From positions 248,001-312,000 of the forward strand of contig NZ_CP045720.1 in NCBI RefSeq assembly GCF_009646115.1: DNA of 64,000 bases. The letters are read 5' to 3'. The position numbers and the translations under genes are program-made. Source of the stretch: Pantoea eucalypti. GTDB taxonomy: Bacteria > Pseudomonadota > Gammaproteobacteria > Enterobacterales > Enterobacteriaceae. The notes below the pieces were generated by a model. It did no database searches. It was not told the DNA's origin and was given only the letters and a program-made list of their open reading frames with translations. This document shows positions 28,544 through 39,495 of this stretch, one piece after another; positions within the stretch are counted from its first letter, which is position 1, and each line of letters begins with the position of its first letter.

Positions 28544-29476
28544 ATGATTACGCGTCGACGCTTTATTCTCGGCACGGGAGCGCTCGGGCTCTCCATGACC
28601 ACCGGCAAATTATTTGCCCGCGATGACATTATTCCCCTCTGGCCGGATGATCCGCCCGGCGGCGGCGGCCCATCCGGCCAGTTAAATATTAACAGCACCG
28701 GTTCCTGGTCAAATATCGTCAGTCCGGCCATTCAGCGCTTTAAACCGGAAAACCCCAATGGTGAAGCCGTATTAATCGCTGCAGGCGGCGGTTATCGCTG
28801 GATCGGTATGGGCCGCGAAGCCTGGCCGGTGGCGCGCTGGCTCAATGCCAGTGGCTATACCGCCTATGTGCTCAGCTACCGGTTGCCGCATGAGAAGTGG
28901 CAGGCGGGACGGCTGGCACCGCTGCAGGATGCGCAGCGTGCCATCCGGCTGGTGCGATCTTTTGAGCGCAAAGTGCATGCACTGGGCTTCTCGGCAGGTG
29001 GACATCTGCTGGGATTGGCGGCAGCGCGGCCAGATTTTGCATCGTATCCGGCCATCGATCCGCTGGATGAAGTGGTGCCGAAAGTCGACAGTGTTGGCCT
29101 GATCTATCCGGTTATTACCCTGGAAGCGCCTTATCAGCACACTAATACCCATCTGATGATGGTCGGCAAAAATGCCACGCCGCAGGATGAGGCGAACTGG
29201 TCAGTGCAGAACTATGTCACCCGGCAATATCCGCCCACGTTTCTGGCGCAGGCCGAGGACGATCACACCTCAAATCCGTTTAACACCGAGCTGATGCGCG
29301 ACACCTGTCGCCGCAACCGCGTGCCGGTTGAGCTGATTCAAATCAGCAAAGGCGGACATGGATTTGGTCTTGGCAAGGCGGGCACGCCCGCGGCGTTATG
29401 GGATCAGGCGTATGTTAAGTGGCTGGAAAACCTCCGTCAGGTTGCATACCTGGGCATGCACGACTCATCCCTGTAA
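28544..29476 (+). CDS. Tat-exported alpha/beta hydrolase (acetyl-esterase/lipase-like)
   Basis: Exported hydrolase of 310 residues. The N-terminus MITRRRFILGTGALGLSM has the twin-arginine pattern (RRRFI followed by a hydrophobic run), so folded export to the periplasm is expected. The mature part resembles the acetyl-xylan-esterase/BD-FAE group: GGGYRWIGMGREAWPVARWL, SYRLPHEKW, catalytic Ser in GFSAGGH, Asp in AEDDHTSNP and His in GGHGFG. A Gly/Pro-rich linker (DDPPGGGGPSG) follows the signal. It probably removes acetyl or related ester groups from carbohydrate; the substrate is not shown. Confidence 0.85.
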   Translation: MITRRRFILGTGALGLSMTTGKLFARDDIIPLWPDDPPGGGGPSGQLNINSTGSWSNIVSPAIQRFKPENPNGEAVLIAAGGGYRWIGMGREAWPVARWLNASGYTAYVLSYRLPHEKWQAGRLAPLQDAQRAIRLVRSFERKVHALGFSAGGHLLGLAAARPDFASYPAIDPLDEVVPKVDSVGLIYPVITLEAPYQHTNTHLMMVGKNATPQDEANWSVQNYVTRQYPPTFLAQAEDDHTSNPFNTELMRDTCRRNRVPVELIQISKGGHGFGLGKAGTPAALWDQAYVKWLENLRQVAYLGMHDSSL

Positions 29477-29498
29477 CCCTTCCCCTTGCGACTGACGT

Positions 29499-29521
29499 AA
29501 AAAAAGCCGGCATTCGCCGGC
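29499..29521 (-). terminator. Rho-independent terminator of the porin gene
   Basis: Read on the minus strand, GCCGGC, a four-base loop and GCCGGC (29506-29521) are followed by seven T. It lies 73 bases past the porin stop; it may also serve the convergent hydrolase gene. Confidence 0.85.
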
Positions 29522-29593
29522 CTCGCGACAGTAGCGATTTTCAGGATTGAAGCGACACAGGTTAAAGCTTGTGTGCAGGCAGAGGCCGCCTGA

Positions 29594-30673
29594 TTAAAAC
29601 TGATAGGTCAGGCCCATAGCGATACTGTCTTTCGTCGAAATGCCGGTGGCACGCGTAAAGTCGTTTTCCTTCAGCAGGTTAATGCGATAGTCCACGTAGG
29701 TCAGCATGTTCTTGTTGAAATAGTAATAGGTGCCCACCGCAATATATTTCTGCATCGTCTGACTGCCCCCGGCAAAATTTCCTGCGCCCTGCAGGTTTTC
29801 GCCACGCTGCGTGACAAAACCGACTGAAGGGCGCAAACCGTTCAGGAACTGGTACTGCGCAATTGCCTCAACGTTATGGGTTTTGTCAGCGACCTGTGCC
29901 AGCTGTCCATAAGGCGTAACGTCACTGGCTTCGCCATACATGGCGGCCAGATAGATCTGGCTGGCATCATATTTTGCAGAGGTTACCCAGGCGGTGGCAT
30001 CGTCTCCCTGACCGTCAGCTTGCTGAGTCAGCGTCCGTTTTGCTTTCATCCCTGCCGCCGCAATGCTCAGTCCATCGGTAATGTTGTAAGTCAGGCCAGC
30101 ACCGTAACCATCCCCGTTAGCCAGTCTGGCGGTTGCGCGGTCATTTTTCCCTTGATACTGCAGGGTTAGATTTAATCCACCCCACTCCGGAGAGTGCCAG
30201 GTCGCGAGGCCGGTTGAGCGTTTTGACAGGAAGTTATCGTTAGTGGTCATGGTGCCGGAACCGTAGACCGGTGCCATATCCGTATAGGCGGAGGCGGTAT
30301 ACAGTACCCCAAAGCTACGGCCATAATCGAACGAGCCGAAGTCGACCATTTTCAGACCTGCAAAGCCTAAACGTGTGGCATTCCCCGTTTGCGCGTCGCT
30401 ACCGCCTTCACTGTGATTCAGCTGGAAATTGTATTCCCATTGACCATAACCGGTAAGCTGATCATTAATTTGCGTCTCACCTTTAAAACCCAGGCGTGCA
30501 TAAGAGTTGTCGCCATCTTCTGCAATATTATCTGAGAAAACATGGCGCGCATCGACTTTACCGTACAGGTCGAGCTTATTTCCATCTTTATTATAAATTC
30601 CAGCGGAGCATGCAGAGAATGAGACCATAAAAAACATTGCATACGGCGCGGCTGTTTTTATTTTATTGTGCAT
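29594..30673 (-). CDS. General outer-membrane porin (OmpC/OmpF/PhoE family)
   Basis: Trimeric 16-strand outer-membrane porin of 359 residues. After a signal peptide (about 24 residues) the mature start GIYNKDGNKLDLYGKVDARH is the enterobacterial porin signature; further marks are SYARLGFKGETQI, GQWEYNF, RLGFAGLK, FGSFDYGRS and the terminal aromatic MGLTYQF. The constriction loop reads PVYGSGTMTTNDN, unlike the PEFGGDT of OmpC/F, so pore selectivity may differ. AAGGG lies eight bases before the ATG. It is the last gene of the minus-strand phosphodiester cluster, but a 197-base gap suggests its own promoter. Confidence 0.9.
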   Translation of the reverse strand: MHNKIKTAAPYAMFFMVSFSACSAGIYNKDGNKLDLYGKVDARHVFSDNIAEDGDNSYARLGFKGETQINDQLTGYGQWEYNFQLNHSEGGSDAQTGNATRLGFAGLKMVDFGSFDYGRSFGVLYTASAYTDMAPVYGSGTMTTNDNFLSKRSTGLATWHSPEWGGLNLTLQYQGKNDRATARLANGDGYGAGLTYNITDGLSIAAAGMKAKRTLTQQADGQGDDATAWVTSAKYDASQIYLAAMYGEASDVTPYGQLAQVADKTHNVEAIAQYQFLNGLRPSVGFVTQRGENLQGAGNFAGGSQTMQKYIAVGTYYYFNKNMLTYVDYRINLLKENDFTRATGISTKDSIAMGLTYQF

Positions 30674-30786
30674 ATCATCTGCCCTTTTCAGTTAGCTGAA
30701 GCATGAGGAGGTTACCGCTCAGGACGGTATTTATTTCAATCTCACATTCGTATTGTTTAATCGCTAAATCATGAAATGGTGATATC

Positions 30787-30805
30787 GGCCATAAAGGTTA
30801 TGGCC
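30787..30805. repeat. Perfect short inverted repeat upstream of the porin gene
   Basis: GGCCATAA (30787-30794) and TTATGGCC (30798-30805) flank AGG, followed on the plus strand by ATTTTTTAT. On the plus strand this looks like a terminator but no plus-strand gene ends here. It could be an operator in the porin promoter or stop antisense transcription. Confidence 0.5.
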
Positions 30806-30870
30806 ATTTTTTATAATGACTTTCCCTGGTGTTATTACATTCTGGTAGCGTATTTCCTGGTGATTTTTTA

Positions 30871-31617
30871 TTAAAAGGCTAAGTCAGGTATATCGCTTAA
30901 TACGGTTTGCGCGCCCGCATCAATATATTTTCGGGCAAGAACCGGGTCATTGATCGTGGCAATCGCGAATTCAATACCTGAACGGGCCAGTCGCGCCAGG
31001 TCTTCGTCTGTCGCGAAGTCACCCAGGAAATGCAGGATCTGGCAACCTGTTCTGGCGAGAAGCGCCGCGGGGTCTTTCGGCGGGACGCAAACCGCCAGCC
31101 CGCGGGGTACGTCAGGCATAAGCCGTGCGGCAACCTGCAGCGAAATCTCAGAAAAACTGCTGATGAATAATTTCTTCTCGCTTGCTGGCCACAGTGATTT
31201 CAACTGAGCGATCGCAATCTCCGCCGTCTCCACTTCCTGCCCGGAGGTGGGTTTGATTTCCAGTTGTAGCCCGACGCCTTTATCCAGTACAAAGCCGACT
31301 GTTTCAGCCAGTGTAGGCACTTTAACGCCCCTGAAAAGGTGGCCGTAACATACGCCAGCCTCCAGCGACCGGATCTCATCCAGGGTCAGATTCGCCACAT
31401 AGCCTTTGCCATTCGTTGTCCTGTTTACGGAATCGTCATGAATAATGACCGGGTGCATATCTTTGGTGAGTTTGACATCCACCTCTATCCACGTTGCGCC
31501 GTGTTCCACCGCCGCCAGAAACGAAGGTAGCGTGTTTTCCGGTGCCAGTAGCGGTGCTCCCCGATGGGCAATCAGACGGGAGTTCACTACACGTGCAGGG
31601 TGTTTTTGGGTCGACAT
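30871..31617 (-). CDS. Glycerophosphodiester phosphodiesterase (UgpQ-like)
   Basis: Cytoplasmic enzyme of 248 residues that splits glycerophosphodiesters into an alcohol and a phosphomonoester (commonly sn-glycerol 3-phosphate). The GDPD TIM-barrel motifs are intact: His18-Arg19 (AHRGA), Glu27-Asn28, metal ligands Glu45 and Asp47 (IEVDVKLTKD) and catalytic His60 (IIHDDSVNRTTNG). QLEIKP and the late NDPVLARKYIDAG are also typical. No signal peptide, so the substrate must be imported; the ABC importer genes lie directly upstream (37-base gap to the binding-protein gene). Not called ugpQ because the ugp locus is different. Confidence 0.92.
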   Translation of the reverse strand: MSTQKHPARVVNSRLIAHRGAPLLAPENTLPSFLAAVEHGATWIEVDVKLTKDMHPVIIHDDSVNRTTNGKGYVANLTLDEIRSLEAGVCYGHLFRGVKVPTLAETVGFVLDKGVGLQLEIKPTSGQEVETAEIAIAQLKSLWPASEKKLFISSFSEISLQVAARLMPDVPRGLAVCVPPKDPAALLARTGCQILHFLGDFATDEDLARLARSGIEFAIATINDPVLARKYIDAGAQTVLSDIPDLAF

Positions 31618-31654
31618 TATTGGCGTTACCTTCTGTTAGGGTTATATCGCAGGT

Positions 31655-32758
31655 CTACCTGAGCAAAACCTGGTTAGAAAATTCGGTTCTGACTTCATCA
31701 CCCAGCGGTTTAGGCATGAACTGGGTGCCATGGATACGCTCTTTGCTGTTAATCAGTCCGGCATCACGATTTACGTCTTTGTTTTGAGGCGTAATGCCAT
31801 AAACCTGCTGAAACAGCCGTTGGGTGGTGGGCAGCGTCAGCCAGTGGATAAACAGCAACGCTGCCGCTTTATGGGGGGCGTTTACAGGTATCGCCACCAT
31901 ATTTCCGCCGCCGGGCATGCCGAAATCGGGGATATAGAGCCGGATCGTTTTCGGGACTTCACCGTGGTTTTCTAATCCCACCAGATAATCTTCCCAGGCG
32001 GGGACCAGCAGGAATTCACCGCTGACCAGCCGGGTGACGCTGTCGGCGTTGGAGGCCGTAATGATGTAGTTGGGGCGCTGCTGTTTGAACCAGTTCCAGG
32101 CCGGCTGCAGAGCCGTCAGGCTTTTTAGATCCGCATCGCCTTTCGTGAAATCAAAACCCGGTACCCGTGTGCGCGTCACCGATTCAATAAAGGCCGGGCC
32201 GGATCCGCCGTTTTCAACGTTGAAGCCAAACTCCTGACGATGACGCTGCAGAAAGGCCGTAATCTGCGGCAATGTTCGCGGTAACTCACTTTCTTTCAGG
32301 CGGCGCGAATCGTAGGCCAGACCGGTCTGGTTGCCCCAAAATGCCACGCCATAGCCTTTACTGTCCGTTCCCTCAATGGTGTAGTTCAGGGTTTTGCCTG
32401 CCGGCAGCAGTGTATTAATCGGGCCAAAAAACGTTTTCTGAGGTGATACGGTCCCGAATGCCCCGCCGCCAATCGAAAACAGATCAATGTCACCCGTATC
32501 CCGTCCCCGGTCTGCCATGAGTTTATTAATATTACCCTGTAGTGTGCCTTCAGACAGGGTAACGTTAATACCGTACTGTTTTTCAAACAGGCTGACCTGC
32601 TCTTTTAAACGGTCCTGGTAATACCATTGATACCAGGTTAATTCCCCTTCTTTTTTCGCCTGTTCGACAATCTGTTCCCAGTTCATCGTAGTTAAATCCT
32701 GAGCCTGGCTACAGAAAGCCCCGGCCAGCAATAATATTGCAGCAACGAATCTGAACAT
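31655..32758 (-). CDS. Extracellular solute-binding protein of an ABC importer (family 1)
   Basis: Periplasmic binding protein of 367 residues with a signal peptide (MFRFVAAILLLAGAFCSQAQ). It belongs to the broad polyamine/iron/phosphonate/hexose-phosphate binding class: ELTWYQWYYQDRLKEQVSLFEKQYG, GDIDLFSIGGG, AWEDYLVGL and HKAAALLFIHWLTLPTTQRLFQ are typical landmarks. ATG 32758 is preferred over an in-frame TTG at 32770, having GGGG six bases upstream. Its ligand cannot be read from sequence; the linked phosphodiesterase and phosphatase genes suggest a phosphorylated small molecule. Confidence 0.85.
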   Translation of the reverse strand: MFRFVAAILLLAGAFCSQAQDLTTMNWEQIVEQAKKEGELTWYQWYYQDRLKEQVSLFEKQYGINVTLSEGTLQGNINKLMADRGRDTGDIDLFSIGGGAFGTVSPQKTFFGPINTLLPAGKTLNYTIEGTDSKGYGVAFWGNQTGLAYDSRRLKESELPRTLPQITAFLQRHRQEFGFNVENGGSGPAFIESVTRTRVPGFDFTKGDADLKSLTALQPAWNWFKQQRPNYIITASNADSVTRLVSGEFLLVPAWEDYLVGLENHGEVPKTIRLYIPDFGMPGGGNMVAIPVNAPHKAAALLFIHWLTLPTTQRLFQQVYGITPQNKDVNRDAGLINSKERIHGTQFMPKPLGDEVRTEFSNQVLLR

Positions 32759-32789
32759 ATGTTTCCCCAATAACGCGAATTAAAGACTG

Positions 32790-33626
32790 TCAGCCTTTTC
32801 CTGCAAAGGCGGCGACAGGATTTCTTGTCAGTAATTTTTCTGCAATCAGCATTAAAATGACATTTGGCACAACCAGCATTAAAGAAATGACCGCCGCATT
32901 GGGTCGAATAAAGTTATAACCCAGATAAGAATAGAGAATGGCCGGGACGGTAATAAAATCGGGTGAGCCAACAATGAAACTTATGGCGAACTCTTCTATT
33001 GATAACGTAAAAACAATAATTAGTGCGGCAAATATTCCCGGCCTGATGGTGGGCAGGCAGGCGACTAAAAAACGGTTTATCACCGAAGCGCCCATATCCC
33101 GTGCCGCATCAAGCGTGTCCTGGCGTATCTGCGAACACGACAGGGTGAGAATGCGCACGGCATAAGGCATCAGGATAATAATATGCCCCAGCAAAATGCC
33201 GCCAAACCGGCTGTGAATGCCCGCCACGTTAAGCAACATGGAAAAAAACAGTGCCACGACAAAGCCCGGAACGATAAGCGGCAATAAGATCGCATTCTGT
33301 AAAAAATGTTTGCCCGTAAACGACATTCTGCCAAACGCCCACGCGGCAGGCAGAGACAGCATCAGCGTGCAGACCGAGACGGTTGCCGCCAGTAAATAGC
33401 TGTTCCTGAGCGCCTGCGGTAACGCGGTCGTGGTCCAGACTTCCACCCAACGGCCCAGTGAGACAACCGGCGGCAGCGCATCTGGCCATGCCCACGGATG
33501 GGTTTTATCGACCAGTGACCACAGGACGGTCAACATAAAGGGAATGACCAGCCACAGCATAAACAGGGCGGTGATAATGATCATCATGACGATTCGCAGC
33601 GGGGATAAGGTCTCTCTGGCTTTCAT
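32790..33626 (-). CDS. ABC importer permease (PotC-like)
   Basis: Inner-membrane permease of 278 residues with six hydrophobic segments. The EAA loop that docks to the ATPase reads DAARDMGASVINRFLVACLPTIRPG near residues 175-200. ATG 33626 overlaps the upstream permease stop in ATGA, giving firm support for this start over an in-frame position at 33656. Together with the next permease it forms the heterodimeric channel of the importer. Confidence 0.92.
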   Translation of the reverse strand: MKARETLSPLRIVMMIIITALFMLWLVIPFMLTVLWSLVDKTHPWAWPDALPPVVSLGRWVEVWTTTALPQALRNSYLLAATVSVCTLMLSLPAAWAFGRMSFTGKHFLQNAILLPLIVPGFVVALFFSMLLNVAGIHSRFGGILLGHIIILMPYAVRILTLSCSQIRQDTLDAARDMGASVINRFLVACLPTIRPGIFAALIIVFTLSIEEFAISFIVGSPDFITVPAILYSYLGYNFIRPNAAVISLMLVVPNVILMLIAEKLLTRNPVAAFAGKG

Positions 33627-34492
33627 GATCGCTGTTCTCCGGCTTGTTGTAGCCACTTCGCCAGGGCGGCAAGCACGACTGCACCGACAAAAGCCGCCAG
33701 CATTAAAATCACGGCGACAACCGCGGCAAGATTCCAGCCCTGGGCGCTGATTTCGGGGAAGCGCAGCATGTATTGCGAAAGAGAGAACACGCTGGTCGGC
33801 CCCGCAACGACCTGGAATGAAAAGTCACCTAATGCACCGATGAAAATCAGCACCAGCGACACCTGAACGGACTTGATAGATAAAGGCAGAATGATCTGTA
33901 ACAGCCGGGCAGCTCTGCCGGCACCCAAATCCCGCGCGGCATTAAAAATTTCGTCACCAATCGCGCGCAGGCTGCCGGTAATAATCAGCAGCGCATAGGG
34001 AAGCTGTTTCCAGACCTGCAAAATAATCACGCCCGTTCCCCAGCGGTCATTTTGCATCCTGATGGGGTGAGAGATGATCCCCAGTTTAAGTAACCCCAGG
34101 TTAATAAAACCCTGCCACGAAATCAGATTGATAAACAGCAGCGCGGCAACCAGTCCGTGCACCATCAGCGGGGCTTTAAGCAAACCGCCCATCAGCATTG
34201 AGCCGGGAAAGGGTTTTCTCAGCCACAGTGCCAGCGGGAGCGCCAGCGCGACGGACAGAACGGCACTGATGACGCCAATTTTGAGTGAATAGCCTGTCGC
34301 GCGCCAAAGCTGACTGTCGTTCAGGATGGTTTGCCAGTACTGAAGTGTGAAATGCGCCGGCGCGCCAAAATTAAACAGACCAACGGACTGCGCCAGCGCC
34401 ATGATGACAATCAGCACCAGCGTCAGCACGACCGGCGCGACGGCAGGCAAAACCAGCAGCCAGCTAAGCCTGTTGCGGTTGCGCATTTTCAT
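33623..34492 (-). CDS. ABC importer permease (PotB-like)
   Basis: Inner-membrane permease of 289 residues with six hydrophobic segments and an EAA loop NAARDLGAGRAARLLQIILPLSIKS near residue 190. The start ATG overlaps the ATPase stop (ATGA), and its own stop overlaps the next permease start in the same way, so ATPase and permeases are translationally coupled. The arrangement ATPase, permease, permease, binding protein follows the potABCD order. Confidence 0.92.
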   Translation of the reverse strand: MKMRNRNRLSWLLVLPAVAPVVLTLVLIVIMALAQSVGLFNFGAPAHFTLQYWQTILNDSQLWRATGYSLKIGVISAVLSVALALPLALWLRKPFPGSMLMGGLLKAPLMVHGLVAALLFINLISWQGFINLGLLKLGIISHPIRMQNDRWGTGVIILQVWKQLPYALLIITGSLRAIGDEIFNAARDLGAGRAARLLQIILPLSIKSVQVSLVLIFIGALGDFSFQVVAGPTSVFSLSQYMLRFPEISAQGWNLAAVVAVILMLAAFVGAVVLAALAKWLQQAGEQRS

Positions 34493-35571
34493 GAACAGCT
34501 TTCCTGTAAAAAACGGATTCTGTCTGGCGCAATGGAGAAGTTAACCCGATCACCTTCCTGTATGGTGTTTTTGCCGACTAACTGGATACACCACTGATAG
34601 TCTGTTTCTTCATGCCCAATCGGATGAACCTGGAGTTCAGAAATATTGCCAAGAAAACTCACGGCACCGATCTCAAAAGCCCGGGTGTTTTTCCCCGTAT
34701 CCTGTTCGCTCAGCAGGGCATCCTCAGGACGCCAGAAGGTATAGACCTTGTCCGAGACGGGCGGCTGGTGACTGTGTATTTCCATTTCGCCCATGACACA
34801 CGCAATACGATAAATACCGCTGCTGCTATCTCCGTCCAGTACGCGGGCTTCCATCACGTTAGCCTGACCGACAAAACCGGCGACAAAGCGGTTTATCGGG
34901 GAATAATAGATCTCATCCGGCGTACCGATTTGTTCGATCTTTCCGGCATTCATGACCACCACAACGTCAGACATCGACAGGGCTTCTGCACGGTCATGGG
35001 TAACATAAATGGCGGTAAATCCATGGGAGCGCTGAAGCTGTCTGATCTCCAGTCGTACCTTGTCCCGTAATTTGGCATCCAGATTTGACAGCGGCTCATC
35101 AAACAACACGATTTCCGGACGCACGGCCAGCGCTCTGGCAAGCGCCACGCGCTGCTGCTGACCGCCGGATAACTGCGCCGGCAGTTTAGGCAAATGCGCA
35201 TTGAGTGATACCTGAGCAGCGGTCTGCGCTACGCGATCGTGAATATCCGTTTTTGCCATCTTCATCTGCCTGAGGCCAAAACCGATATTTTCAGCAACGG
35301 AAAGGTGAGGAAAAAGCGCATAGGACTGAAAGCACATCGCCGTGTCGCGATGTTCAGGTTTGACATGATGCATGTCCTGCTGGTGGATCAGTACTTCGCC
35401 ACTATCAAGACTGTAAAAGCCGGCAATGACTTTAAGCAGCGTGGTTTTGCCACAGCCAGAGGGGCCAAGCAGGGAAACAAATTGCCCTTTTTTGGCCTGC
35501 AGTGAAATGCCGTTCAGCGCGACAAAATCGTCAAATGTCAGCATGGCATTGTGGATTTCTAGCGTGTTCAC
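34489..35571 (-). CDS. ABC importer ATPase (PotA-like, with TOBE domain)
   Basis: ATP-hydrolysing subunit of 360 residues. Walker A GPSGCGKTT near residue 36, Q-loop CFQSYALFP, signature LSGGQQQRVALARAL, Walker B IVLFDEPLSNLD and H-loop YVTHDRAEAL are all intact; a C-terminal TOBE-type regulatory domain follows (WRPEDALL, then IRFLQES). I choose GTG 35571 (sequence opening NTLEIHNAMLTFDDF) because GGAG lies about nine bases upstream and this fits family length; an in-frame ATG at 35625 would add 18 residues. Confidence 0.9.
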   Translation of the reverse strand: MNTLEIHNAMLTFDDFVALNGISLQAKKGQFVSLLGPSGCGKTTLLKVIAGFYSLDSGEVLIHQQDMHHVKPEHRDTAMCFQSYALFPHLSVAENIGFGLRQMKMAKTDIHDRVAQTAAQVSLNAHLPKLPAQLSGGQQQRVALARALAVRPEIVLFDEPLSNLDAKLRDKVRLEIRQLQRSHGFTAIYVTHDRAEALSMSDVVVVMNAGKIEQIGTPDEIYYSPINRFVAGFVGQANVMEARVLDGDSSSGIYRIACVMGEMEIHSHQPPVSDKVYTFWRPEDALLSEQDTGKNTRAFEIGAVSFLGNISELQVHPIGHEETDYQWCIQLVGKNTIQEGDRVNFSIAPDRIRFLQESCS

Positions 35572-35880
35572 GTGGTCTGCTCCGTCATAAAATGCCAGGG
35601 ATTTCTTAATTAATGCGATGCGCATAATAATCAGGCGTAGTGAATTTAAGCAATTTCAGAGAGGTTAAGAATTTATTAAGTTTTTAAAACCTATATTTAA
35701 CAGGTTAATGTAAGGTTTATTTGAAATCGTATGTTTAACGCGCTAATTATTTTAATGCATTATGATTAATATTAAGTTCAGAGGGTTAAGATGCTCTGGC
35801 AGAGCGCGCACAGCGGGCAGGGCAGCGGGGAGACGCTGTCCTGAAATGCAGTGATAAGGTAAGTCCGGGGCAATGCGTGG
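35572..35880. other. A+T-rich leader between phosphatase and ATPase genes
   Basis: 309 bases without a gene. Bases 35660-35790 are strongly A+T-rich and probably carry a promoter for the importer operon. The palindrome TAATGCATTA at 35753-35762 shares its ATGCAT core with repeats in the regulator's upstream region (36751-36908). Confidence 0.5.
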
Positions 35881-36654
35881 TCAGGCAGGCGTAAATCGAG
35901 GATAAGGGATAAACCGGGCAGAAAGGCGGTTCATTTCGGGCGTGCCGACACTCACATGTGTGCTGCTTTTTTCCTGTGTGCCGGCAAGATGCGCATCCAG
36001 TCCCGCCGCTTTACAGAGGGCATAGCCCGCAGAAACGTCCCACATGCTGCTAAAACATTCCTGATAACCGTCGACGTAACCCAGCACGCTAAAGGTTAAA
36101 CCGACGGTGGCACAGCGATAGCGCACAACATTCCAGCCGTCGTCCCGATAGGCCTTTTCAATACAGAGCTGATGGGTGAAATCCCATGATGGACTGTCTC
36201 CAATCGCCACGGTTTTAAGCCCCCCGGCGATCACAGGCCGTTCAAAGGGTTCACCATTCAGATAAACACCTCTCTCTTTGCCGCCGCTCAGCATGAGGTT
36301 TAAAACGGGATGGACGATCACGCCCATAACCGGCTCGCCATCCTGCACATAGCCAACAGAAATCCCCCACAATGACGAGCCGCGCAGGAAGTTACTGGTC
36401 CCATCAATAGGATCAACAGACCAGTAGCTGGCGCTGAGCTCACCGCCATACTCTTCACCGATAACAGGATCCTGTGGGAAATGATCTCCCAGACGCTGCC
36501 GGATCAGATTTTCCACTTCCCGATCGGCTTCACTGAAGACATCCTGCGGCCTTTTTTCGCAGACCTCTAATTCACTCAGCTGTCTGAAATAGTCCAGAGC
36601 CAAAAGTGAAGCCTCTTGTGCGATACGTTCAGCAACCTTTAAGCGCGTTTCCAT
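35881..36654 (-). CDS. Inositol monophosphatase family protein
   Basis: Mg2+-dependent phosphomonoesterase of 257 residues, cytoplasmic. Motifs in order: DVFSEADREVE at about 38-48, GEEYGG at 66-71 (metal-binding Glu), DPIDGTSNF at 81-89 (two metal-binding Asp), and WDVSAGYAL near 205 (third Asp). The family covers inositol-1-phosphatase, histidinol phosphatase and others, so the substrate is open. Its position upstream of the importer and phosphodiesterase genes, on the same strand and facing a divergent ROK regulator, suggests it removes the last phosphate from the imported compound. Confidence 0.9.
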   Translation of the reverse strand: METRLKVAERIAQEASLLALDYFRQLSELEVCEKRPQDVFSEADREVENLIRQRLGDHFPQDPVIGEEYGGELSASYWSVDPIDGTSNFLRGSSLWGISVGYVQDGEPVMGVIVHPVLNLMLSGGKERGVYLNGEPFERPVIAGGLKTVAIGDSPSWDFTHQLCIEKAYRDDGWNVVRYRCATVGLTFSVLGYVDGYQECFSSMWDVSAGYALCKAAGLDAHLAGTQEKSSTHVSVGTPEMNRLSARFIPYPRFTPA

Positions 36655-36954
36655 TGTTTACCTGATGCATAAAAAGAAGCGTGTGTATGGAGGCAAAACC
36701 CAGTGCACAGCGAAAATACCCATCCGGACATCAGGCTCGCTTTTAATATAATGCTTACTGCATGATATTAGAGTGTCTCTCTGCTATGTTTCACTATTAT
36801 GATGCTTTTATGATCGCGATAAGCAGGGCAGGAGAGGCTGAAAATCAGCACATTTTACGAAAACATAAAGGCAGGGCCCTTTACTATTCGTCATGCATAA
36901 AAGCATGCTAGGGTATTAACAGAACCCATTATTAAATATGGTGAGGACAACGCT
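36655..36954. promoter_or_regulatory. Divergent control region of the phosphatase and ROK regulator
   Basis: 300 A+T-rich bases. Symmetric ATGC/GCAT elements recur: ATGC-N5-GCAT at 36751-36763, ATGCTTTTATG at 36802-36812, and ATGC-N6-GCAT at 36893-36906, whose right part is the inverted copy of the second. These spaced, A+T-rich dyads are plausible operators for the adjacent ROK protein. Binding is inferred. Confidence 0.5.
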
Positions 36955-38085
36955 GTGGTTCATGGATATTCCGCTGGTCATGATGTCGAACTTAATCGCA
37001 GTGAAAAACTCATTCTGGAGCTTGTCCGCCGTAACGATGGCATTTCCCGCTCCTCACTGGTTTCGCAAACCATTCTGAATCAGTCATCTGTTCACCGTAT
37101 TGTTGATACGCTGACCGAAAATGGCTTTCTCAGCCTGGGGGAATCGCCGTCCCAGGGAAGAGGCAAGCCCAGCCCGTCGTTATCACTGAATGCGAATGCA
37201 CGTTATGGTTACGGTATCTCTATTAACTCAGACAGTGTTGCCGCCAGCCTGATTAATTTCCGGGGCGGTATTACAGAATACTGCGTACTGGATACGCATC
37301 CGCGCGACCCTGCCCGTACCTTACTCAATATCAAACATCACTATCTGGATACCTTAAAACAATACGGTATTTCGCCAGAAAAAGTCTGTGGTGTGGGATA
37401 CAGCATGGCGGGCTTTCTTTATGATTCCCGAAAGTATTTCAATCCGCCTGAACCTTTAAAAAACTGGATGGGGATCGATCTGCGTCGTGAAATTACCATG
37501 TTATTTGATCGGCCGGTATGGATTGAAAATAACGCCACGACGGCGGCGCACGCTGAAGCCTTTTTAGGCGCCGGGCTGAAATACGATACGTTTGGTTATC
37601 TCTCTTTTAATTATGGATTCGGCGGTGGCATCGTGATTAACGGTAAACCGTTCCAGGGTGCATTTGGTAATGCGGGGGAGATCAGCCGTATTTTTACGCC
37701 GGAAGAGGGCAAGCTGCGGCCGGCTCTGGGGATCCTGATCGATCGGTTACGTCACGGCGGTATTGAAATTAAAGATATTCGCGATCTCAATCATAAATTC
37801 GATCCGGCCTGGCCGATTGCGCAACAGTGGGTAGAAGAGGTAACGCCAAACCTGCATCGGGCAATGGATGCCATGAATGCGGTGATCGATCCCGCGGCCA
37901 TTATATTAGGAGGCGAAATTCCCCGTAAGCTGGGCGAAATGTTCTTAGCCATGCCGCGGACGTGTTCGGGTAAACGCTGGGACATTTCTGCAGAATATCC
38001 GGATATTCTGCTAAGCGCCATTGAGGGAGACAGTTCGGCACTGGGCGCGGCACTGACGCCGTTGCGGGAAACCTATTTTAATTAA
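36955..38085 (+). CDS. ROK-family transcriptional regulator
   Basis: Regulator of 376 residues: winged helix-turn-helix at about 15-75 (SRSSLVSQTILNQSSVHRIVDTL), then a ROK sugar-kinase-like domain (GYGISINSDSVAASLINFRG; VENNATTAAHAEAFLGAG-like segment read as IENNATTAAHAEAF; GGGIVINGKPF). GTG 36955 has GAGGA eight bases upstream. The cysteine-rich zinc motif CGxxGCxE, usual after GNAGE in Mlc/NagC-type proteins, is missing here: the sequence goes on as ISRIFTPEEGK. It is divergent from the phosphatase gene and probably represses the whole minus-strand cluster until its ligand appears. Confidence 0.88.
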   Translation: MVHGYSAGHDVELNRSEKLILELVRRNDGISRSSLVSQTILNQSSVHRIVDTLTENGFLSLGESPSQGRGKPSPSLSLNANARYGYGISINSDSVAASLINFRGGITEYCVLDTHPRDPARTLLNIKHHYLDTLKQYGISPEKVCGVGYSMAGFLYDSRKYFNPPEPLKNWMGIDLRREITMLFDRPVWIENNATTAAHAEAFLGAGLKYDTFGYLSFNYGFGGGIVINGKPFQGAFGNAGEISRIFTPEEGKLRPALGILIDRLRHGGIEIKDIRDLNHKFDPAWPIAQQWVEEVTPNLHRAMDAMNAVIDPAAIILGGEIPRKLGEMFLAMPRTCSGKRWDISAEYPDILLSAIEGDSSALGAALTPLRETYFN

Positions 38086-38087
38086 GG

Positions 38088-38123
38088 CCGTTACCCGCAG
38101 AACAACGTTTCAGCGGGTAACGG
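38088..38123. terminator. Stem-loop between ROK gene and gor
   Basis: CCGTTACCCGC (38088-38098) and its exact reverse complement (38113-38123) flank a 14-base loop between two convergent genes. No T-run; probably a shared terminator-like structure. Confidence 0.5.
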
Positions 38124-38142
38124 ATGCGCATGAGGTGAGTTA

Positions 38143-39495
38143 CTAGCGCATTGTCACAAACTCTTCCGCTGCGGTCGGGTGGATCGCCACGGTGTTATCG
38201 AAGTCTTTCTTGGTCGCACCCATTTTCAGTGCCACGGCGAAGCCCTGCAGCATCTCATCCATGCCGAATCCGATGCCGTGAATACCAACAATCTTCTCAT
38301 CGGCACCCACACAGACCAGCTTCATGCGGCACGGCTGGCGATGCTGGGTGACCGCGGTGTACATGGCGGTGAACGACGATTTGTAGACCTTCACCTGGTC
38401 ATCGCCATACTGTTCGCGCGCCTGTGGCTCAGTCAGTCCCACGGTACCAATCGGTGGATGGCTGAAGACAACGGTCGGAATATTGCTGTAATCCAGATGC
38501 TCGTCCGGTTTGTTGTTAAACAGACGCTCAGAGAGACGACGGCCAGCGGCAACCGCCACCGGTGTCAGCTCAACCGCACCGGTGTTGTCACCCACAGCAT
38601 AAATGCCTGAGACATTGGTGTTCTGAAACTTGTCGACATTGATATAGCCTTTGTCGTTCAGCGCCACGCCCGCAGCTTCGATGTTGAGGTTATCGTTGGC
38701 TGGCTCACGGCCAATCGCCCAGACCAGACAATCGACAATATATTCACTGCCGTTTTCCAGCTGCAGCGTCAGGCTGCCATCGCTGTTTTTAATCACGGCT
38801 TTTGGAATGGATTCGGTGTGCAGCGCCGGGCCTTCCGTGTTCATCACTTCGACCAGCGTCTCGGTGAGCAGCGGATCGAAGCTGCGCAGTGGTGCATGTT
38901 TACGCACGAACAGGTGGGTTTCTGAGCCCAGCGCATTTACCACGCCGGCCAGCTCGACCGCGATGTAGCCCGCGCCGATCACGGCGGTGCGTTTTGGCAG
39001 GGCATCCAGCTCAAAGAAACCGTCGGAATCAATGCCGTACTCCGCGCCCGGAATATTGGGGTGAACCGGACGACCGCCGGTGGCGATCAGAATATGGTTA
39101 GCCGTAATAATCTCGCCGTTAACTTCAACGCTGTGCGCATCGACAAAGCGGGCAAAGCCTTTGATCACTTCAACCTTGTTCTTACCCAGCACGTTGTCGT
39201 AAGAGTTATGGATGCGGTCGATGTAGGCGCTGCGGTTTTTCACCAGTGTGGCCCAGTCGAAGCTATTCACCGTGGTGTCAAAGCCATAATCCGGCCCGTA
39301 GAGATGGATAGCTTCGGCGATTTGTGCAGCGTGCCACATGATTTTTTTCGGCACGCAACCCACGTTTACGCAGGTGCCGCCCAGCTCTTTTGCTTCAATC
39401 AGGGCACATTTCTGGCCATACATAGCTGCACGGTTAATTGAGGCGATGCCGCCGCTGCCGCCGCCAATGGCGAGATAGTCGAAATGTCGGGTCAT
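38143..39495 (-). CDS. gor: Glutathione reductase
   Basis: FAD- and NADPH-dependent homodimer that reduces glutathione disulfide in the cytoplasm. 450 residues from ATG 39495, the same as E. coli Gor, and near-identical to it. FAD loop GGGSGGIAS at about 11-19, redox-active pair in [18 protein letters not shown] loop [11 protein letters not shown] near 174, and the C-terminal active-site [12 protein letters not shown]. An in-frame ATG four codons earlier (39507) is rejected by comparison. Convergent with the ROK gene; the rlmJ neighbour expected from E. coli is separated by rbn and a CPBP gene. Confidence 0.97.

Follow-up and report, generated by a model that had tools for sequence, protein, structure and literature searches.

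A candidate sugar-phosphodiester uptake cassette of Pantoea eucalypti related to the ROK-type operons of Ti plasmids

Agrocinopine-type opines are usually treated as private to agrobacteria. Agrocinopine A enters the cell whole through AccA-E and is split in the cytoplasm by AccF into sucrose and arabinose-2-phosphate, the latter being the effector of AccR (PMC4526662). In A. vitis K306 a candidate synthase gene, acsx, has been described together with accG, two accF genes and accR, and its opine is not known (PMC7365797). A Nicotiana and sweet potato are reported to carry genes for agrocinopine synthase (acs; PMC10674353, PMC5606197), and an acs gene of a naturally transgenic Nicotiana yields agrocinopine A upon expression in E. 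coli (PMC10674353), for which reason agrocinopine-type diesters may exist outside galls. A galactose-phosphate diester, xanthosan, is made from uridine diphosphate (UDP)-galactose by AvrBs2 and is described as Xanthomonas-specific; loss of the ROK gene of the xan cluster left virulence unchanged, and the authors consider that diesters of this kind may be widespread as a nutrient strategy (PMC12807533).

Here we analysed a stretch of 64,000 nucleotides from Pantoea eucalypti (contig NZ_CP045720.1, positions 248,001 to 312,000; hereafter ‘the window’, whose coordinates we use throughout), in which seven minus-strand genes face a divergent gene for a ROK-family regulator. They encode an outer-membrane porin, a glycerophosphodiester phosphodiesterase (GDPD), a solute-binding protein (SBP), two permeases and an ATPase of an ATP-binding cassette (ABC) importer, and an enzyme of the inositol monophosphatase (IMPase) family. 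Our comparison documents this gene set and the families of its parts, related blocks on tumour-inducing (Ti) and opine plasmids, in rhizobia and in other Enterobacterales, a shared palindrome, and the presence or absence of the unit among Pantoea genomes. We consider it probable, at roughly 0.7, that the cassette is a chromosomal relative of the ROK-type operon of Ti plasmids, importing an intact sugar-phosphate-sugar diester of the agrocinopine class that GDPD would split and the IMPase-family enzyme would dephosphorylate. The ligand class is inferred from the relatives, which do not fix the exact ligand. Judged by its sequence, the novelty would lie in a module of agrocinopine-like uptake and breakdown that sits on an enterobacterial chromosome and uses a different importer and a different regulator.

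Relatives on Ti and opine plasmids

A tblastn search of 72,556 plasmid records with the cassette SBP returned 164 records. The plasmid of Pantoea sp. Nvir ranked first, followed by ten Agrobacterium plasmids at 52-56% identity; after these came a rhizobial megaplasmid (50%) and another two Agrobacterium plasmids (48%). Searches with the GDPD, IMPase-family and ROK proteins led to the same Agrobacterium plasmids, the Nvir plasmid being ahead for SBP, GDPD and ROK, and identities to the Agrobacterium copies amount to 48-56% for SBP, 59-60% for GDPD, 42-44% for the IMPase-family enzyme and 51-54% for ROK. Seven of the 12 Agrobacterium plasmid records were inspected, two of them by annotation only, and all seven stretches contain genes for ROK, ATPase, SBP, GDPD, IMPase, a sodium/phosphate (Na/Pi) cotransporter and TraR. 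On pTi_CFBP2407 the Na/Pi cotransporter, the sucrose phosphorylase GtfA and TraR are 86, 81 and 88% identical to the proteins flanking acc/arc on pTiC58, so that the ROK-type operon occupies on these plasmids the place that acc has on pTiC58. The initial annotation of the locus knew of no named system with this gene set; this does not hold, as pTiC58 acc has the same enzyme pair, and the ROK-type operon of Ti/opine plasmids is a still closer relative.

Four of the seven Agrobacterium stretches have an agrocinopine-synthase-like gene in the neighbourhood of the operon. It stands beside the ROK gene on pTi_CFBP2407, on pAvCG412 (where it is annotated ‘agrocinopine synthase’) and on pTiAg57 (as two annotated pieces), and about 6 kb from the operon, across IS66 genes, on pTiAF3.44, where it is 44% identical to the pTi_CFBP2407 synthase. 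The latter is about 60% identical to the pTiC58-type Acs, and of 134 records only 3 reach at least 89% identity to it, all three of them holding the ROK-type operon. Furthermore, sucrose phosphorylase (gtfA) is annotated in five of the seven stretches, aldose 1-epimerase in two and alpha-galactosidase in one, which is why we favour a sugar-phosphate-sugar compound over glycerophospho-compounds. As a separate observation, a plasmid of A. larrymoorei (locus L083, 3717-10777; loci fetched for comparison carry numbers of this kind) holds a further ROK-SBP-ATPase-permease-permease-GDPD-IMPase operon, in another gene order and without the operator described below.

Some of these genes could also be read as pointing to xanthosan or to some related product of AvrBs2-type enzymes, a galactose-phosphate diester; this reading overlaps with ours. 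The sole NCBIfam match of the two transferred-DNA (T-DNA) synthases scanned is AvrBs2, far under its cut-off; aldose 1-epimerase and alpha-galactosidase occur together in one Ti-type operon; and the xan cluster likewise has a ROK gene (PMC12807533). However, the TonB-dependent transporter and the 2H phosphoesterase that Xanthomonas employs have no counterpart among the cassette proteins, and we regard xanthosan as a quite improbable ligand.

Core loci, enzyme trees and a shared operator

The loci fetched were divided by SBP identity into 18 core loci (at least 47%, including 5 of the 12 Agrobacterium plasmid records) and 18 outer loci (34-45%). The GDPD gene adjoins the SBP gene in 18 of 18 core loci, a ROK gene is present in 17 of 18 (on the Nvir plasmid at a distance of about 15 kb), and 13 of 18 have a close IMPase, one split copy counted. 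The expectation that both enzymes would be conserved with the importer was thus borne out for GDPD and only partly for the phosphatase. Prodigiosinella and two other genomes of the window's family carry the full set including IMPase. In Rhizobium sp. C1 and two other members of its family the set is present without a close IMPase. As the same block recurs in other genomes, the grouping of these genes is more than chance. Among the outer loci, a ROK gene was found in 16 of 18 and a GDPD-family match in 11 of 18, two of them partial; in seven of these loci the best GDPD match is pTiC58 AccF (29-32%, nearly full length).

Two features of individual loci deserve mention. In three genomes of 2.0-2.3 Mb from another family of the same order (L065-L067), a ROK gene and an ABC importer are accompanied by an AccF-like GDPD; judging by the genome size, we suspect that these bacteria are animal-associated, and a plant opine would then hardly be their ligand. 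In two relatives a similar open reading frame (ORF) of about 518 amino acids adjoins the IMPase gene (L056 12163-13722, L057 6432-7988).

The cassette SBP is 47-64% identical to the Nvir, Ti, Rhizobium and Prodigiosinella-group proteins, and outside Pantoea chromosomes the ROK protein is 49-65% identical to the regulators, and GDPD 56-76% to the GDPDs, of the related core operons. To UgpQ of the same genome the cassette GDPD is 32% identical, and in the GDPD tree it groups with the core-operon GDPDs, parted from UgpQ and AccF (branch support 81/94). Its residues H18, R19, E45, D47, H60 and E120, which we take to have catalytic roles, are invariant across 16 core rows. In the IMPase tree the cassette enzyme falls with those of ROK operons (85/97), and these with AccG (95/92), to which the cassette enzyme is 38-40% identical; the four other IMPase-family proteins of the same genome fall apart from this group. 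The 17 core ROK proteins form one clade (Shimodaira-Hasegawa-like approximate likelihood ratio test, SH-aLRT, 96). The ROK and SBP trees were quick ones without bootstrap, and all roots are midpoints; identity tables and trees exclude L007, L012, L070 and the duplicate L072, as well as GDPD rows that did not pass a length or score filter, L056, L059, L068 and L069 among them. In both enzyme trees the Prodigiosinella group joins the Ti plasmids and not Pantoea (GDPD 95/91, IMPase 95/95), so the module has likely crossed between bacterial classes, in one direction or the other. The Prodigiosinella IMPase (L011 10978-11718) has WN, near the C-terminal end of the catalytic region, where the other aligned rows have WD.

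The initial annotation had proposed glycerophosphoinositol as the ligand. On this reading the cassette would import a common plant glycerophosphodiester, GDPD would free inositol phosphate or glycerol phosphate, and the IMPase-family enzyme would make inositol. Indeed, GDPD keeps the canonical residues and has a UgpQ-type model as its top match, under cut-off, and inositol monophosphatases do belong to the IMPase family. The relatives do not support it, though: the phosphatase is AccG-like rather than SuhB-like, grouping with AccG and not with the four paralogues in its own genome, on Ti plasmids the same block is associated with agrocinopine-synthase-like genes (4/7) and sucrose phosphorylase (5/7), and no inositol gene is annotated in the inspected Ti stretches or found among the cassette proteins. 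We therefore consider such a ligand improbable, if somewhat less so than xanthosan.

A 21-bp palindrome, TATNATGCNNNNNGCATNATA, lies at 36747-36767 in the intergenic region between the ROK gene and the operon, where we predict a ROK operator; it is a perfect match to the operator pattern and the only one in the genome, which has 14 sites at two or fewer mismatches compared with 7 for the reversed pattern. With at most two mismatches in 16 positions, the pattern occurs in 13 of 13 core regions from two bacterial classes, a result equalled in 0-1 of 300 dinucleotide shuffles. As it was drawn up after palindromes had been seen in Pantoea, L057, L087 and L020, nine of the 13 regions are true tests, and among these nine L023 is nearly identical to L019. 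At the same cut-off the pattern is absent from 9 of 9 outgroup regions (4-6 mismatches), the region preceding accR on pTiC58 included; these regions represent seven of the 18 outer loci, L083 and pTiC58 acc, with L058 and L060-L069 left out. A second operator-like palindrome (35609-35629, 2/16 mismatches) lies upstream of the likely ATPase start, and a site of this type, with two mismatches, is found at the corresponding place in the six other Pantoea chromosomal copies scanned. The best-scoring promoter-like site points towards the ROK gene and its TATAAT forms the left half of the 36747-36767 palindrome, but the promoter scan gave 8 sites against 10.0 expected in shuffles, so we base our statements on promoters on the operator alone. 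The assignment of a ROK regulator to this cassette is supported, and the shared regulator-operator pair would point to one kind of inducer.

The cassette genes and their distribution in Pantoea

All eight ORFs were confirmed with their coordinates and strands, and the families initially assigned to them agree with our domain matches. The IMPase-family phosphatase gene (35881-36654, minus strand) matches Inositol_P at 2e-38 and is AccG-like by tree placement. It is followed on the same strand by the ABC ATPase gene (34489-35625; ABC_tran 2e-35), permease A (33623-34492) and permease B (32790-33656), both BPD_transp_1, the periplasmic SBP (31655-32758; SBP_bac_8 4e-22), GDPD (30871-31617; GDPD 3e-37, with no signal peptide evident by inspection) and the porin (29594-30673; Porin_1 6e-103), which is OmpC/PhoE-like yet under the cut-offs of those models. 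The divergent ROK gene (36955-38085, plus strand) has a ROK match, and the N terminus of its product is of the winged-helix type. For the ATPase, GTG 35571 is a more probable start than the ATG 35625 of the ORF, given that family matches begin near residue 20 and that a likely regulator site occupies 35609-35629. The ATGA overlaps first noticed among the importer genes are seen at 34489-34492 for ATPase and permease A, and hold for permeases B and A if the internal ATG 33626, the likely start, is that of permease B. The gaps of 255 bp between IMPase and ATPase and of 198 bp between GDPD and porin leave room for further promoters. A pattern scan placed a terminator-like stem-loop 3' of the porin gene (29503-29524, minus strand; a 9-pair stem followed by a T run), a consensus match only. 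The porin is kept at the same place in the Pantoea copies, also lies 3' of GDPD on the Nvir plasmid (66%), and is part of the cassette block.

These matches also bear on whether the importer could be a generic one for iron, polyamines or 2-aminoethylphosphonate, with the enzymes adjacent by chance. The ATPase has PhnT2 as its best NCBIfam model, under that model's cut-off, and overall the ATPase and permease scores are nearest PhnT2/PhnU2, PotA and a molybdate-type permease model; solved SBP relatives include iron and polyamine binders, and one distant iron binder at 1e-10 was the sole yield of a PDB profile search with the SBP. Nevertheless, every NCBIfam match listed falls under its cut-off, GDPD is adjacent in 18 of 18 core loci and the operator is shared, making this explanation very improbable. 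We also rejected the ugp reading along with the polyamine, iron and phosphonate ones, as the family models are under cut-off and the neighbourhood does not fit. That the cassette is not the ugp operon had already been proposed, and is borne out by UgpC and UgpA models under cut-off, an SBP without a UgpB match and a UgpQ-like GDPD elsewhere in the genome.

Nine of 60 Pantoea genomes, this one included, match the SBP at 1e-40: six hold an intact copy (94-100%), one holds it in two pieces and two hold only a 35-36% relative. The SBP is 94-96% identical in P. ananatis, P. allii, P. anthophila and Pantoea sp. WMus005, and the adjoining glutathione reductase gene, gor, is matched at 98% in WMus005, 96% in P. 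anthophila and 92% in P. ananatis; in P. allii (L008) a gor match is absent from the stretch compared. In 15 of 15 cassette-free Pantoea genomes the cassette genes were not found in stretches of 12.3-13.6 kb beginning with gor. In four of these 15, gor abuts a PaeX-like gene, and their intergenic regions align to the window through 29427 and resume at 38144; in the others either extra genes separate the two or the stretch ends short of the PaeX-like gene. By these alignments the cassette (about 29,428-38,143) is a clean presence/absence unit between gor and the PaeX-like gene. The GC content of 29594-38085 is 50.9%, compared with 55.6% for the window. Relative to P. ananatis, the cassette proteins are 93-98% identical and so more alike than the flanking proteins (Gor 92%, PaeX-like protein 84%, antiporter 79%), which suggests that the block has been transferred between species. 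No megablast match was found in E. coli genomes.

Several Pantoea copies differ from that of the window. In Pantoea stewartii (L012 5105-5876, 9001-10283) the IMPase and SBP genes are each in two pieces, with full-length matches for GDPD and ROK. The Nvir plasmid (L021 5753-13361, L087 5258-6598) has a GntR gene beside the operon and no IMPase there, its ROK gene is about 15 kb from the operon, and operator-like sites precede both the ATPase and the ROK gene. A few Pantoea genomes (L068, L069, L070) carry a second, distant importer of the same family with an SBP at 34-37%, accompanied in L068 and L069 by a ROK gene and an AccF-like GDPD.

Proposed function and comparison with known systems

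We propose that the porin would let the diester through the outer membrane and that the SBP and ABC transporter would bring it in whole. In the cytoplasm GDPD would then split it, in the way that AccF cleaves agrocinopine A, releasing a free sugar (sucrose, for example) together with a sugar phosphate, and the IMPase-family phosphatase would act on this sugar phosphate. Bound to the palindrome, the ROK protein would repress its own gene and the operon, and binding of the sugar phosphate or sugar would end the repression.

A number of observations weigh against this proposal. The importer is not of the AccA-E type and GDPD is only about 31-34% identical to AccF. The IMPase gene is missing in the cassette at L071, split in P. 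stewartii and absent near the Nvir copy, and in the rhizobial loci it is absent (L073), far off (L010) or merely a 32% relative (L074). Genes for a synthase were not seen in three of the seven Agrobacterium stretches, nor was a pTi_CFBP2407-like synthase found in the 60 Pantoea genomes, this one included, in a search run without a positive control, while the Na/Pi cotransporter, gtfA and traR were not found at the window's cassette or at the Pantoea copies searched. An AlphaFold2 model of the SBP built from 7 rows was unusable (predicted local distance difference test score, pLDDT, 42; predicted template modelling score, pTM, 0.43). GDPD was not seen in 7 of 18 outer loci, contradicting a strict importer-GDPD rule. 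With the cut-offs we applied, 11 of 345 genomes from the order and 9 of 346 from the rhizobial family carry SBP relatives; given this spread and the outer loci without GDPD, an opine may not be the natural ligand. A make-and-eat system complete within Pantoea was a separate candidate, which we rejected because that search of 60 genomes, run without a positive control, gave no match to the synthase.

The doubt about opines can be put as an explanation that overlaps with ours and differs in the source of the ligand, not its class: the module would serve a natural plant or microbial sugar phosphodiester, Ti plasmids would have borrowed it for opines and Pantoea would never meet them. In its favour, no synthase match turned up in the loci fetched for the rhizobial copies, of which at least one is on a megaplasmid, or for the chromosomal copy of Prodigiosinella, and in seven outer loci a distant importer of this family has an AccF-like GDPD and a ROK gene close by. 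On the other hand, no such natural compound was identified in this analysis, and Ti plasmids and Pantoea lie close together both in operator and in GDPD grouping. We find a purely natural source possible but rather unlikely, and favour an agrocinopine-class diester.

A bolder extension, which we put forward tentatively and give somewhat less than even odds, would make Pantoea an ‘opine raider’: a mobile ROK-controlled module would take up private diesters made by T-DNA acs/acsX enzymes, by naturally transgenic plants or by AvrBs2-like effectors. One inducer chemistry would have crossed between Gamma- and Alphaproteobacteria, marking out an acsX opine together with its uptake system. Our literature search, which covered few subscription papers, found nothing linking Pantoea to agrocinopine uptake or describing a ROK-regulated version. 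One text that also mentions agrocinopine names Pantoea for auxin genes (PMC10410297). A study of crown-gall opportunists found opine catabolism gene families in all genomes analysed, Pseudomonas and Rahnella included, and the words ‘Pantoea’ and ‘ROK’ do not occur in its text (PMC10745273). If our proposal is true, a common plant bacterium likely consumes private nutrients that other bacteria have plants make, and a chromosomal relative in plant-associated enterobacteria turns such nutrients into public goods, which bears on how crown galls, naturally transgenic plants and lesions shape the microbiota. On a practical matter, the cassette offers a tractable importer, enzyme pair and operator for identifying the acsX product.

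Among the known systems, ugp (UgpBAEC, UgpQ) resembles the cassette in combining an ABC importer with a cytoplasmic GDPD and is not known to include IMPase or ROK; its binding-protein model differs from the cassette SBP, and the UgpQ-like GDPD of this genome is encoded at a separate locus and is a distant tree neighbour (32%). The acc/arc system of pTiC58 (AccR, AccA-E, AccF, AccG) shares with the cassette a GDPD-family enzyme and an AccG-type phosphatase behind an ABC importer, but its importer is of the Opp type, its regulator AccR of the DeoR type and its GDPD of another clade; the SBP and ROK proteins of the window gave no blastp match at 1e-3 to AccA or AccR. The AvrBs2-XanT-XanP system of Xanthomonas likewise treats a sugar phosphodiester as a private nutrient and has a ROK gene in its cluster, and differs in TonB-dependent uptake, a 2H phosphoesterase and a synthase of its own delivered as an effector (PMC12807533). 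The closest relative is the ROK-type operon of Ti/opine plasmids (pTi_CFBP2407, pAvCG412, pTiAg57, pAtAG67, the A. vitis F2/5 plasmids and pTiAF3.44), which has the same divergent ROK gene, the same ATPase-permease-permease-SBP-GDPD order, IMPase and operator. It is plasmid-borne and runs on to the Na/Pi cotransporter, often sucrose phosphorylase, and traR, with IMPase after GDPD and no porin annotated, whereas in Pantoea IMPase comes first, the porin last, and traR is absent.

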